Positions 32,476 through 36,143 of a stretch of 64,000 nucleotides of DNA are shown one piece after another (position 1 is the stretch's first letter; every line of letters starts with the position of its first letter). The stretch spans positions 62,001 through 126,000 of the forward strand of contig CANLEQ010000010.1 in NCBI GenBank assembly GCA_947489705.1, read 5' to 3'. The notes under the pieces were generated by a model that searched no databases, was not told the origin of the DNA, and saw only the letters and a program-made list of their open reading frames with translations. Source of the stretch: an uncultured Paracoccaceae bacterium. GTDB lineage: Bacteria; Pseudomonadota; Alphaproteobacteria; Rhodobacterales; Rhodobacteraceae. The translations under genes and the position numbers were made by a program.

Positions 32476-33324
32476 TCAGTCGGTCGAGCGACGGCGCTCC
32501 AGAAGTTTGGAAACGAGCGCCCCGAGCAGGATGATGCACGACGACAGCCACATCCAGACGAGGAGAATGATCGTGCCACCGATGGCGCCGAATGTCTCGT
32601 TGTAGGAGCCGAAATACCGAACGTAGATTGCGAAGCAGATGCTTCCGATGATCCAGAGTACGCATGCTAAGGCGGCACCGGGGACGAGCGCACCCCAGCT
32701 CGAGAAATGCCGCGACGGTGCGATCCGGTATGTCATCACGATCCCGAGCGCCGCAATCACCAGCAGAACGGGCCAGCGCAACATCATCACCAGCGTCTCC
32801 TCCGACTGTCCCAGTGGCAGCCACGCCATGATCGCCGGAACGATGGCCGCCAGCGCCACGCAGAGGATGATCCCCAGGATCAGCCCCAGCGTCAGCCCGA
32901 TCTTGGTAAGTGTCGCCTGCACGAGACTGCGCTCCTCCTCGGTCTCGTAGACGAGGTTGAGCCCGTCCATCAAACCCTGCATCGCGTTCGACGCGGAGTA
33001 GAGCGTCAAAAGAAGACCTGCGACCGCCGCAATGCCGAGACCGCCCGTATCCGCACCGGCGACCGCCGTCGCCTGCCCGATGATGATGTCGTATGCCGCC
33101 TGCGGCAGCACGCCCTGAAGAACAGACATCTGGTCGACCACGGATTGCGGGTTCACCAGAAGCCCGGCAATCGCCATGAGGGCGCCGATCCCCGGAAAGA
33201 GGGCGAGAAGTCCGAAAAACGCGACACCCGCCCCGATGAGGGTCAGTTTCATGCGCACGATCTCGGCCCATAGGGCCTTGCCGAAGCCCACGGCTCCGTG
33301 CGGGGCGTCTGTTGTCTCGGTCAT
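32476..33324 (-). CDS. YihY/virulence factor BrkB family membrane protein
   Basis: The 282-residue protein has six or so membrane helices and the family pattern (ALFPGIGALMAIAGLL, YSASNAMQGLMDGLNLVYE, WGALVPGAALACVLWIIGS, FGSYNETFGAIGG). The family has no established biochemical role despite an old RNase BN label. AAGGA lies about 8 nt before the ATG at 33324; the open frame extends 32 codons upstream without family similarity. It lies upstream of the TRAP operon on the same strand, separated by 161 nt. Confidence 0.9.
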   Translation of the reverse strand: MTETTDAPHGAVGFGKALWAEIVRMKLTLIGAGVAFFGLLALFPGIGALMAIAGLLVNPQSVVDQMSVLQGVLPQAAYDIIIGQATAVAGADTGGLGIAAVAGLLLTLYSASNAMQGLMDGLNLVYETEEERSLVQATLTKIGLTLGLILGIILCVALAAIVPAIMAWLPLGQSEETLVMMLRWPVLLVIAALGIVMTYRIAPSRHFSSWGALVPGAALACVLWIIGSICFAIYVRYFGSYNETFGAIGGTIILLVWMWLSSCIILLGALVSKLLERRRSTD

Positions 33325-33500
33325 GTCGGGGTCCTTCTTGAGCGTTGATACGCAACTCCAGCGAGAGCCGTGCGTTCCACTTCGTATCGCGCAGGCAGGA
33401 ACTGCGCGTCGATTTTTCAAAACCGCGCCCCGAGGACAATCAGGCGCAATTAAAGTTCAAATAGCGCCGCCCGAAAGCCATATTTGTTGCGCTTTCGGTG
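33325..33500. other. Non-coding stretch between yihY and the ilvB promoter
   Basis: This divergent spacer carries no open frame I can support. It is slightly more A/T-rich near 33445-33485 and should contain the minus-strand promoter for yihY. A short GGCGC/GCGCC inverted repeat flanks an A/T-rich core near 33449-33474. Nothing else is recognisable. Confidence 0.5.
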
Positions 33501-33529
33501 TTGACGCTACACCGGGCGTTGCCTAAGCA
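33501..33529 (+). promoter_or_regulatory. Candidate promoter of the ilvB leader
   Basis: TTGACG (five of six consensus bases) is followed after 17 nt by TAAGCA. The predicted start near 33536 would place the leader-peptide ATG about 24 nt into the transcript, with a GAGG site between, which fits an attenuated operon. Confidence 0.5.
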
Positions 33530-33559
33530 GGGTCTCAGCAAGCAGAGGTCAGGTAGATC

Positions 33560-33607
33560 ATGACGATCGTGGACGTAATTATGACGAAAGGGCGCGGGGG
33601 CCGGTAG
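33560..33607 (+). CDS. ilvB operon leader peptide (15 aa)
   Basis: ATG to TAG encodes MTIVDVIMTKGRGGR. Four of codons 3-7 are Ile or Val, two of the three end products of the pathway that begins with the downstream acetolactate synthase. A GAGG and an AGGT lie 11 and 5 nt before the ATG. The second half of the frame overlaps one arm of an antiterminator, and a strong terminator follows 27 nt after the stop codon. This is the layout of a ribosome-mediated attenuator: stalling at Ile/Val codons favours the antiterminator, while completion of the peptide favours termination. Translation and regulation are inferred. Confidence 0.75.
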   Translation: MTIVDVIMTKGRGGR

Positions 33608-33638
33608 TGACCGACCCTTCCTGAACGACACGCGCCCT
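33589..33638 (+). promoter_or_regulatory. Antiterminator pairing of the ilvB attenuator
   Basis: AGGGCGCG (33589-33596), inside leader codons 9-13, is perfectly complementary to CGCGCCCT (33631-33638). The second element overlaps the first five bases of the terminator stem, so the two structures exclude each other. A ribosome resting at the leader stop codon would cover the first element and leave the terminator free to form. Confidence 0.65.
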
Positions 33639-33664
33639 CGACTGATCCTCGGGGGCTTTTTCTT
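33634..33664 (+). terminator. Attenuator terminator upstream of ilvB
   Basis: GCCCTCGA pairs with TCGGGGGC (8 bp with one G-U, loop CTGATCC), followed by TTTTTCTT. It lies between the leader peptide and ilvB, 80 nt before the ilvB start codon. A further 8-bp inverted repeat (GCAACGCT/AGCGTTGC, 33667-33701) follows and may shape the remaining leader. Confidence 0.8.
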
Positions 33665-33743
33665 GCGCAACGCTTGGTTCCCACTCGAATGACAGCGTTG
33701 CTTACCGACCGCGCCCACGGGCGCCGATGTGGAGACCGAAACG

Positions 33744-35498
33744 ATGACAAAACCGATGACGGGTGCAAAAATGGTGGTTCAGGCCCTGAAGGATCAGGGC
33801 GTCGAGGTCGTGTTCGGTTATCCCGGCGGCGCGGTCTTGCCAATCTACGACGAGATCTTTCAGCAGGACGATATCCGGCACGTCCTCGTCCGGCACGAGC
33901 AGGCGGCGGTGCATGCCGCCGAAGGCTATGCGCGATCGACCGGCAAGGTGGGCGTTGCGCTGGTGACGTCCGGACCGGGCGCCACGAACGCCGTCACCGG
34001 GCTGACCGACGCGCTGATGGACTCGATCCCGATCATCGTGCTGTCAGGTCAGGTGCCGACCTTCATGATCGGCAACGACGCGTTTCAGGAGGCTGATACC
34101 GTCGGCATCACCCGCCCCTGCACCAAGCACAACTGGCTGGTAAAGGAGACCGATGCCCTGTCCGGCGTCATCCACGAGGCGTTCCACGTCGCCGCGTCGG
34201 GACGTCCGGGGCCCGTTCTCATCGACATCCCGAAGGACGTGCAATTCGCCAGCGGCCGCTACACCCAGCGCGAGAAGGCGCGGCTCAGCCGGTATCAACC
34301 GCAGGTCAAGGGCGACGCGGAAACCATCGCCGCCCTCGCTCAGGCCATGGCCACCGCGAAAAAGCCGGTCATTTACTCCGGGGGAGGCGTCATCAATTCC
34401 GGAAATCAGGCCTCGCAACTGCTTCGCGAACTGGTGGCCGAGACGGATTTTCCCATCACCTCGACGCTCATGGGGCTCGGCGCCTATCCGGCGTCGGGCA
34501 AGAACTGGCTCGGGATGCTGGGAATGCATGGCCTTTACGAGGCCAATCTCGCCACCCATGGCTGCGATCTGCTGATCAATATCGGTGCGCGGTTCGATGA
34601 CCGCATCACCGGCCGTGTTGATGATTTCAGCCCGCATTCGCTCAAGGCGCATATCGACATCGATGCCTCGTCGATCAACAAGATCGTCCATGTCGACCTG
34701 CCCATCCTCGGCGATGTGGCCAACGTCCTTGAGGATCTCCTCCGGATCTGGCGCGATCAGGGGAGCGTGACCAACCGGGAAGCCGTTGCCAAATGGTGGC
34801 GTCAGATCGAAGAATGGCGGGCGGTCGAATGCCTCAAGTTCTCTCCGTCGGGAAAGGTCATCAAGCCCCAGCACGCGCTGTCGCGGCTCGAGGCGCTGAC
34901 CAAGGATCACGACCGCTACATCACGACCGAAGTGGGTCAGCACCAGATGTGGGCCGCGCAATATATCGGGTTCGAGGCACCGAATCGATGGATGACGTCG
35001 GGCGGGCTCGGGACGATGGGCTACGGCCATCCCGCGTCGATCGGGGTGCAGATGGCGCATCCCGACGCGCTCGTCATCAACGTCGCGGGCGAAGCGTCCT
35101 GGCTGATGAACATGCAGGAGCTCGGGACGGCGGTGCAGTATCGCCTGCCCGTCAAGCAGTTCATCCTCAACAACGAACGACTCGGTATGGTGCGCCAGTG
35201 GCAGGAGCTCCTGCATGGCGAGCGGTACTCGCATTCCTGGTCGGAGGCCCTGCCCGACTTCGTGAAGCTGGCCGAGGCGTTCGGCGCCAAGGGCATCCAG
35301 TGCAAGGATCCCGACGATCTCGACGATGCGATCCGCGAGATGATCGAGCATCCCGGCCCCGTGATCTTCGACTGCCTGGTCGAGAAGCACGAGAATTGTT
35401 TCCCGATGATCCCGAGCGGTGAGCCCCACAACAAGATGTTGCTCGCAAATGCCGAGACGCAGGGGCAGATCACCGCGCCCGGGGCGGTCCTGGTGTAA
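33744..35498 (+). CDS. ilvB: Acetolactate synthase large (catalytic) subunit
   Basis: The ThDP- and FAD-dependent enzyme condenses pyruvate to acetolactate, or with 2-oxobutyrate to acetohydroxybutyrate, starting Ile, Val and Leu synthesis. Landmarks include FGYPGGAVLPIYD, the catalytic Glu in RHEQAAVHAAEGYA, TSGPGATN and ILNNERLGMVRQWQ. The ThDP/Mg motif, usually GDG or GDA followed by NN, reads GEASW here, with Glu in the metal-ligand position. The 584-residue length is standard. The ATG at 33744 has GGAG 9 nt upstream. Expression is probably set by the upstream attenuator, and ilvH follows 90 nt later. Confidence 0.96.
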   Translation: MTKPMTGAKMVVQALKDQGVEVVFGYPGGAVLPIYDEIFQQDDIRHVLVRHEQAAVHAAEGYARSTGKVGVALVTSGPGATNAVTGLTDALMDSIPIIVLSGQVPTFMIGNDAFQEADTVGITRPCTKHNWLVKETDALSGVIHEAFHVAASGRPGPVLIDIPKDVQFASGRYTQREKARLSRYQPQVKGDAETIAALAQAMATAKKPVIYSGGGVINSGNQASQLLRELVAETDFPITSTLMGLGAYPASGKNWLGMLGMHGLYEANLATHGCDLLINIGARFDDRITGRVDDFSPHSLKAHIDIDASSINKIVHVDLPILGDVANVLEDLLRIWRDQGSVTNREAVAKWWRQIEEWRAVECLKFSPSGKVIKPQHALSRLEALTKDHDRYITTEVGQHQMWAAQYIGFEAPNRWMTSGGLGTMGYGHPASIGVQMAHPDALVINVAGEASWLMNMQELGTAVQYRLPVKQFILNNERLGMVRQWQELLHGERYSHSWSEALPDFVKLAEAFGAKGIQCKDPDDLDDAIREMIEHPGPVIFDCLVEKHENCFPMIPSGEPHNKMLLANAETQGQITAPGAVLV

Positions 35499-35588
35499 CT
35501 TTCACCGGGCCCTCCGCGACGCGGACGTGCCAGCAAGCAGTCTCGGAAAACCAGATACGGGCGCCCCGATGTGCCAAAGGACACCAGC

Positions 35589-36143
35589 ATGACGTTGAAG
35601 ATCAAGAAGGGTACGTCGAAGCATTCGGCCTACGATCTGCGCAACCCCAATTCCTCCGTGAGCGAACGCCATACGCTGGCGGTGATCGTGGACAACGAGG
35701 CCGGCGTGCTGGCGCGCGTGATCGGCCTTTTCTCGGGCCGGGGCTACAATATCGAAAGCCTGACCGTGGCCGAGATCGACCATACCGGGCATACCTCGCG
35801 CATCACCATCGTGACGACAGGAACCCCGGCGGTGATCGTGCAGATCAAGGCTCAGCTCGGGCGCATCGTCCCTGTCCACGAGGTGCATGACCTGACGGTC
35901 GAAGGTCCGAGCGTCGAGCGCGAGCTCGCGCTCTTCAAGGTTTCGGGACAGGGCGAAAAACGGGTGGAGGCGCTGCGGCTGGCGGATGTGTTCCGCTCCC
36001 GCGTGGTCGACAGCACGTTGGAGACATTCACCTTCGAGCTGACGGGAAGCCCGCAGAAGATAGACGCCTTCGCCGATCTGATGCGCCCCCTAGGCCTCAA
36101 GGAACTCGCGCGCACAGGTGTCGCTGCTTTGTCGCGTGGCTAG
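35589..36143 (+). CDS. ilvH: Acetolactate synthase small (regulatory) subunit
   Basis: This subunit activates IlvB and confers feedback inhibition by valine. It has an N-terminal ACT domain (HTLAVIVDNEAGVLARVIGL, then FSGRGYNIESLTV) and the ALS_ss_C domain ending in LKELARTGVAALSRG. At 184 residues it is slightly longer than E. coli IlvH because of an N-terminal extension (TLKIKKGTSKHSAYDLRNPN). AAAGGA precedes the ATG at 35589; a GTG six codons earlier is rejected. Confidence 0.96.
   Translation: MTLKIKKGTSKHSAYDLRNPNSSVSERHTLAVIVDNEAGVLARVIGLFSGRGYNIESLTVAEIDHTGHTSRITIVTTGTPAVIVQIKAQLGRIVPVHEVHDLTVEGPSVERELALFKVSGQGEKRVEALRLADVFRSRVVDSTLETFTFELTGSPQKIDAFADLMRPLGLKELARTGVAALSRG

Follow-up and report, generated by a model that had tools for sequence, protein, structure and literature searches.

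A putative ribosome-mediated attenuator upstream of ilvB in Rhodobacteraceae, with relatives upstream of MFS transporter genes

The window considered here, a stretch of 64,000 nucleotides from an uncultured Paracoccaceae bacterium, includes an ilvB gene that is followed by a gene for the small subunit of acetolactate synthase. Between a promoter-like sequence and ilvB lies a short, codon-enriched open reading frame, and an intrinsic terminator stands before the gene (Table 1). A GGAG at 33731-33734 precedes the ilvB start codon, which we take to be the ATG at 33744. The original prediction, made from this region by itself, had described a promoter-like pair of hexamers, a 15-codon leader frame with Ile or Val at four of codons 3-7, an arm within the frame complementary to a segment downstream, and a terminator with five T residues whose stem overlaps that segment. 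Each of these parts is present: the hexamers can be read directly, the four Ile/Val codons are codons 3, 4, 6 and 7, AGGGCGCG is complementary to CGCGCCCT, and the terminator, which was also detected by a terminator scan, shares five nucleotides with the second arm. The hairpin at the stop codon, here called P2, did not figure in that description. The window's leader has Asp at codon 5 and Met at codon 8, and its Ile/Val block is therefore weaker than that of its family.

Table 1. Features of the ilvB leader region and the genes that follow it, in window coordinates.
Feature	Position	Strand	Details	Basis
Promoter	33501..33527	+	-35 TTGACG 33501-33506; -10-like CCTAAG 33522-33527	sequence
Leader ORF, MTIVDVIMTKGRGGR	33560..33607	+	stop codon TAG 33605-33607	sequence; homologous leaders
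Ile/Val control codons (3, 4, 6 and 7 of leader)	33566-33571 and 33575-33580	+		sequence
P1 5' arm (antiterminator), AGGGCGCG	33589..33596	+	in frame	covariation; codon constraint
P2 hairpin, CGGU-AGUG-ACCG	33602..33613	+	stop codon at loop	sequence; family conservation; covariation
P1 3' arm, CGCGCCCT	33631..33638	+	33634-33638 common to terminator	sequence
Intrinsic terminator	33634..33661	+	stem 33634-33656; T5 33657-33661	terminator scan; conservation
ilvB, acetolactate synthase large subunit	33744..35498	+		NF006581 equivalog, above cutoff
Acetolactate synthase small subunit	35571..36143 (approximate start)	+	ALS_ss_C, ACT	gene after ilvB

Taken alone, the window is unremarkable in folding stability (MFE z-score of 0.18 in single-sequence folding), and a promoter scan of it did not report the leader promoter, whereas comparison across the family did. 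The evidence that the element is real is comparative, since a single sequence would not make it conspicuous.

A search with the ilvB protein gave a match in all 198 genomes of the family that were covered (198/198), and the best 150 loci among the matches listed were taken for comparison. A layout script, which looks for a short ORF with its stop codon 10-70 nt before a terminator, called the layout upstream of ilvB in 142 of these 150 best-listed loci; 141 of the calls are true, after exclusion of the false positive L093. Four more elements were recognized by eye: one leader without a standard start codon (L098), two elements with a broken T run (L128 and L134) and one leader of 8 codons, MRHNVVLI (L140). 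The genomes of all four also match model R2, which is described below. Five of the 150 upstream regions (L035, L041, L084, L093 and L148) hold no recognizable element. With 141 of 150 ilvB upstream regions sharing it, the layout is not a product of chance. Model R2 matches 165 of the 198 family genomes at an E value of 0.01, a count made with stricter filters by which some members were lost, including G066 from the window's own genus. In that genus the leader is found in 13 of 14 genomes, and no leader element was recognized upstream of ilvB at L236.

All of the first 30 loci (30/30) carry a leader of 14-16 codons. The typical leader reads M...LVVIVGxxRMGR, with an exact RMGR in 109 of 141, and its stop codon lies 26-32 nt upstream of the terminator in 140 of 141. 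A TTGAC is present 20-110 nt before the leader start in 140 of 141 sequences, as against 8 of 141 in the preceding 90 nt; it stands 52-61 nt ahead of the start (5th-95th percentile). One genome (G024) has two copies of ilvB (L030 and L072), with a full leader before each. At L228, in the window's genus, the leader has 9 codons and ends just ahead of the P1 5' arm, close enough that a ribosome on its stop codon would still cover the arm. At 27 other ilvB loci of the class (L250-L276) no ORF rich in Ile, Leu and Val was found with a terminator upstream of the gene, in a search that had only 60 nt of upstream sequence for L275 and whose script may miss other designs.

Among the 116 leaders of fifteen codons, Ile, Leu and Val together account for 94, 98, 94, 91 and 92% at codons 4 through 8, for 15-16% at codons 2-3, and for 0-8% at codons 9-15. 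Where the original prediction named Ile and Val, the block of the family is one of Ile, Leu and Val rather than of Ile and Val alone. Of the Val codons in the leaders, 197 of 379 are GTA, compared with 4.1% in the ilvB genes of 30 loci, and of the Leu codons 70 of 202 are CTA, compared with 1.6% in the same genes. Lower sensitivity was reported when the CUA control codons of the Salmonella leu attenuator were replaced, according to an excerpt of PMC1183508. We also observed that, at codons -8/-7, GTA occurs in 83 and GGA in 75 of 141 leaders. Leaders with GGA, GGG, GAA, GAG or AGA as codon -7 retain a stretch rich in purines at this place, and GTAGGA inside the leader frame resembles a Shine-Dalgarno sequence.

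The helix P1 pairs the last codons of the leader with bases just upstream of the terminator, and its arm contains GCGCATGGG in 108 of the 142 script calls. At codon -5 the amino acid is variable (W, R, T, K, M, G, A and others) and the third base is G in 136 of 141 leaders. Codon -4 is CGC in 129, TGC in 5 and CGT in 2 of 141; TGC and CGT both leave a G-U pair possible, and one of the two changes the amino acid. These patterns suggest that the P1 arm is under constraint at the level of the RNA. As examples of departure from the consensus we point to L073, L139 and L143, whose divergent arms still pair. In two of these, both arms have changed and the peptide is altered: L073 has GGTGCATGGG paired with CCCATGCACC, and L139 has GCGCAGTCGC paired with GCGACTGCGC. 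In shuffling statistics, which ignore the kinship of the sequences, the own-partner score for P1 in 27 non-consensus sequences was 20.09 against a mean of 16.59 (sd 0.62, maximum 18.53, 300 shuffles), and that for P2 in 44 non-consensus sequences was 10.67 against 7.31 (sd 0.59, maximum 8.89, 500 shuffles).

The stop codon lies within the loop of P2 or next to it, and 148 of 152 sequences reach the score threshold set for this hairpin, which is at least 3 bp. It takes such different forms as CCGG-TAG-CCGG (L229), CGGGGCT-AAAC-AGCCCCG (L238) and TGAGG-TGAA-CCTCA (L143). In a subset of 45 sequences with identical spacing (A2), the three P2 pairs all vary on both sides. No change on both sides was seen for P1 in this subset, because the arm is nearly invariant there, and the P1 covariation test consequently rests on the 27 non-consensus sequences. 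In a set of 12 mixed sequences (A3) the shuffles were not convincingly exceeded. Taken together, the alignments indicate that P1 and P2 are kept by compensatory change. With the frame, the Ile/Leu/Val block, the arms and the terminator all conserved, and with non-consensus arms that still pair in relatives, the attenuator interpretation offered in the original prediction is supported in outline. The comparative outcomes that would have told against it, a frame that is not conserved and arms that lack compensatory changes, did not appear.

The arrangement of the helices differs from that of the trp type. No protector hairpin that competes with the antiterminator is conserved among the helices seen, and the 1:2, 2:3, 3:4 topology was not found. 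P2 is instead nested within P1, and since the two are compatible they fold together. Possible functions of P2 include pausing of RNA polymerase, slowed release, or stability of the junction.

We then consider how far P1 and the terminator compete. Their overlap amounts to 5 nt in the window and to 2-3 nt in most of the family (123 of the 142 script calls), and the best ungapped stem has no overlap in L119, L133, L139, L142 and L143, which are five true members. The term "mutually exclusive", used of these helices in the original prediction, suits the window, but it describes the family poorly, and our modelling points to a competition that is partial family-wide. As a measure of switching we took the free energy of terminator completion in two situations: RNA available from stop-15, which represents a ribosome stalled at the control codons, and RNA available from stop+15, which represents a ribosome at the stop codon. 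Folding of 141 sequences gave medians of -2.7 kcal/mol (stop-15) and -6.4 kcal/mol (stop+15), and the median loss of terminator stability with P1 free is 3.7 kcal/mol. The corresponding values for the window are -0.1 and -5.0 kcal/mol. When the boundary was moved along the window's leader, the energy stayed at -0.2 to +0.7 kcal/mol for boundaries between stop-24 and stop-15, and lay at -4.2 to -5.4 kcal/mol for those from stop-12 onward. The front edge of a ribosome lies about 12-15 nt ahead of its A site. With such a footprint, the step between stop-15 and stop-12 would separate ribosomes at codons up to about 6-7, which is where the window's Ile/Val codons are, from those at later codons.

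TGCG also occurs just past the T run of the window, at 33664-33667, where it matches part of the P1 arms. Among the 142 script calls, 63 have TGCG at most 9 nt beyond the end of the T run, and it is a possible further arm.

When the last 15 nt of the frame were permuted, the mean difference was -1.4, compared with an observed -3.6, and the observed value was the stronger in 142 of 152 sequences; the switch energy of the window itself is reached by 23 of 500 such permutations. In 8 of 141 members (L039, L065, L081, L092, L131, L139, L142 and L149) the difference is weaker than 0.5 kcal/mol, and the model therefore does not explain every member. The terminator with P1 free is weaker than -1 kcal/mol in just 20 of 141. 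Since termination would still be favoured at equilibrium in most members, P1 must act kinetically or by weakening the base of the stem.

We consider it very probable that the element is a ribosome-mediated transcription attenuator of ilvB and, probably, of the small-subunit gene that follows. Transcription would begin just upstream of the leader. With Ile, Leu and Val plentiful, the first ribosome to translate the leader would pass the control codons and reach the stop codon, where its footprint would cover the P1 5' arm and P2; the P1 3' arm would then be left free, and the terminator would be expected to form in the cell. With charged Ile, Leu or Val tRNA scarce, the ribosome would stall within codons 3-8, too early for its front edge to reach the P1 arm. 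The helix P1 would then form before the 3' half of the terminator is made and would take the base of its stem, and RNA polymerase would read on into ilvB. Because there is no protector hairpin, and because P2 is nested in P1, an untranslated leader should read through and not terminate. The default of an untranslated trp leader is the reverse.

This predicted default bears on a broader possibility, that the leader monitors translation in general and not amino acids in particular, so that any stalled or absent ribosome would free P1 and inhibitors of translation would also induce ilvB. The P1 arm would indeed be free until a ribosome passes stop-12, and with no protector hairpin detected an absent ribosome predicts read-through; moreover, a uORF attenuator that responds to translation inefficiency is reported for S. 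meliloti in passages of PMC12218461. However, a five-codon block of Ile, Leu and Val at a fixed distance from the arm, together with the rare GTA and CTA codons, is hard to explain without amino acid sensing, and we consider a purely general monitor unlikely. The two responses, to amino acids and to translation in general, may coexist in a leader of this design.

We give little credence to either of two further readings. That the terminator is constitutive, P1 incidental and the small ORF of some other function, for instance a trans-acting peptide, finds a precedent in peTrpL, a trans-acting leader peptide of this class (PMC7298713, as excerpted), and in the conserved C-terminal RMGR noted above. 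Yet variation in the C-terminal codons follows the pairing of the RNA, and in L073 and L139 both arms have changed in a way that alters the peptide; we hold this reading to be very improbable. A metabolite-binding aptamer, with the ORF present by accident, would fit a conserved P1 that encloses P2, and passages of PMC8632094 describe ilv-linked riboswitch candidates in other bacteria. The conservation observed nevertheless tracks the codons and the position of the stop codon, and there is no match to Rfam 15: window positions 32500-34500 gave three matches up to an E value of 5, all far below the gathering score, eight ilvB loci gave none at the gathering score, and eight MFS loci gave none up to an E value of 0.1. 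A riboswitch strikes us as barely credible.

The leader element has relatives ahead of a different gene. Model R1, built from 45 ilvB leaders only and run on 385 genomes of the class, matches 22 of these 385 at an E value of 0.1, five of them in the window's family. In ten of its matches (L159-L168), with E values from 8e-13 to 0.004, all of the parts are present, namely leader, P1, P2 and terminator, but they stand upstream of a gene for an MFS transporter and not of ilvB. The MFS gene next to the leader is supported by tblastn (some loci were renamed L174, L176 and L177), and two of the MFS proteins are assigned to TIGR00710, Bcr/CflA efflux, above cutoff. Seven other R1 matches are weak and were left uncounted: L169-L173, which lack the layout, and G492 and G211. 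The training set of model R2 consisted of nine MFS loci and three ilvB leaders, and its matches to those are by construction; the ten MFS loci had first been found by R1, from ilvB leaders alone. Of the weak matches L178-L191, L179 alone lies upstream of an MFS gene, among those read, which are all but L182 and L190; six further matches were likewise left uncounted.

An exact pattern searched in named genomes identified 26 loci, 16 before ilvB, 9 before an MFS gene and 1 at a contig edge. The nine MFS loci belong to Kiloniellaceae (two), Pelagibius litoralis, Rhodospirillales, Rhodospirillaceae, Sneathiellales, Bradyrhizobium sp. sGM-13 and one bacterial MAG (two loci), and two of the nine repeat loci from the R1 search. 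The MFS-linked loci, some of which are the same place, are L159-L168, L174, L176, L177, L179, L203, L207, L209, L211, L212, L217, L221, L225, L226, L240 and L241. Three other candidates, L242-L244, had no MFS match and were not counted.

In 19 MFS leaders the control block occupies codons -11 to -8, with 78-89% Ile, Leu or Val, mostly valine, and Leu is rare. GTA makes up 12 of 52 Val codons in 17 MFS leaders, as against 4.7% in the MFS genes. The weaker control blocks of L177 and L179 speak against a strict sensing of valine. For 18 MFS loci (two skipped, and some redundant) the median of the computed switch is -3.8 kcal/mol, and in L168, L179, L209 and L217 there is next to no switch. In both the ilvB-linked and the MFS-linked forms the stop codon lies in the hairpin loop, and from the sequences we infer that the two forms share common descent. 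The ten genomes of L159-L168 were searched up to 330 nt from ilvB, and none of them showed an Ile/Leu/Val-rich leader together with a terminator there (0/10); nor was a leader of this type seen in the 330 nt upstream of the MFS homologue (42% identity) in the window's genome.

Whether these forms represent one attenuator cassette, composed of a control block, P1, a stop-codon hairpin and a terminator, that is wired to two unrelated genes is a matter on which we are evenly divided. In Rhodobacteraceae the cassette would precede ilvB and carry a block of Ile, Leu and Val codons; in Kiloniellaceae, Pelagibius, other Rhodospirillales, Sneathiellales and a Bradyrhizobium it would precede a Bcr/CflA-type MFS gene and carry a block centred on valine. 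If this is true, expression of the transporter would follow valine supply or ribosome stalling, which would hint that the transporter takes part in the traffic of branched-chain amino acids or in protection from inhibitors of translation. The cassette would then be a reusable part and not a property of biosynthetic operons.

The abstract of Vitreschak et al. 2004 is said to predict attenuation of ilvIH in alpha-proteobacteria. Passages of two papers that cite that work mention "an ilvB leader peptide" among known alpha-proteobacterial elements (PMC1273637) and an ilvIH cis-regulatory element in S. meliloti (PMC2573895). As represented in the citing papers, the ilvB/ilvIH leader attenuators of Vitreschak et al. 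2004 share with the present element the gene, the class and the kind of control; the present element adds the stop-codon hairpin and the relatives linked to a transporter, in a comparison that draws on the 2004 work via citations only. We class the window element as an attenuator of a known kind with a variant architecture, and an ilvB leader peptide of alpha-proteobacteria is already in print. We regard the transporter link as the new part: in the titles, abstract openings and passages covered from the open-access literature, no report of an MFS-linked leader element was found.

Enterobacterial trp, leu and ilv attenuators likewise consist of a leader ORF with clustered cognate codons, partly rare, followed by an antiterminator and a terminator (excerpts of PMC1183508). 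In those attenuators hairpin I:II competes with II:III, whereas in the ilvB leader a stop-codon hairpin is nested in the antiterminator, and a ribosome at the stop codon would cover the P1 5' arm itself. The uORFC-8-2 motif before cysS in Rhodobacterales is similar in having a uORF with cognate codons and then a terminator, and differs in its gene and in its structure, the first stem of which contains the cysteine codons (PMC8632094, in part). For the MFS relatives, the closest parallel that we point to is the bmrB leader of BmrCD in B. subtilis, where a transporter is under leader-peptide attenuation as we propose; unlike the MFS relatives, bmrB has a leader of 53 residues, precedes an ABC transporter and is induced by ribosome-targeting antibiotics (passages of PMC4191407).

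The element would constitute a family-wide regulator of an early step in branched-chain amino acid synthesis in Rhodobacteraceae, one that yields predictions at the level of both codons and structure. The topology that its nested stop-codon hairpin represents predicts read-through of a leader that is not translated. The relatives ahead of transporter genes suggest that an attenuator can be reused upstream of unrelated genes, and they offer a regulatory clue to the role of the Bcr/CflA-type transporter.
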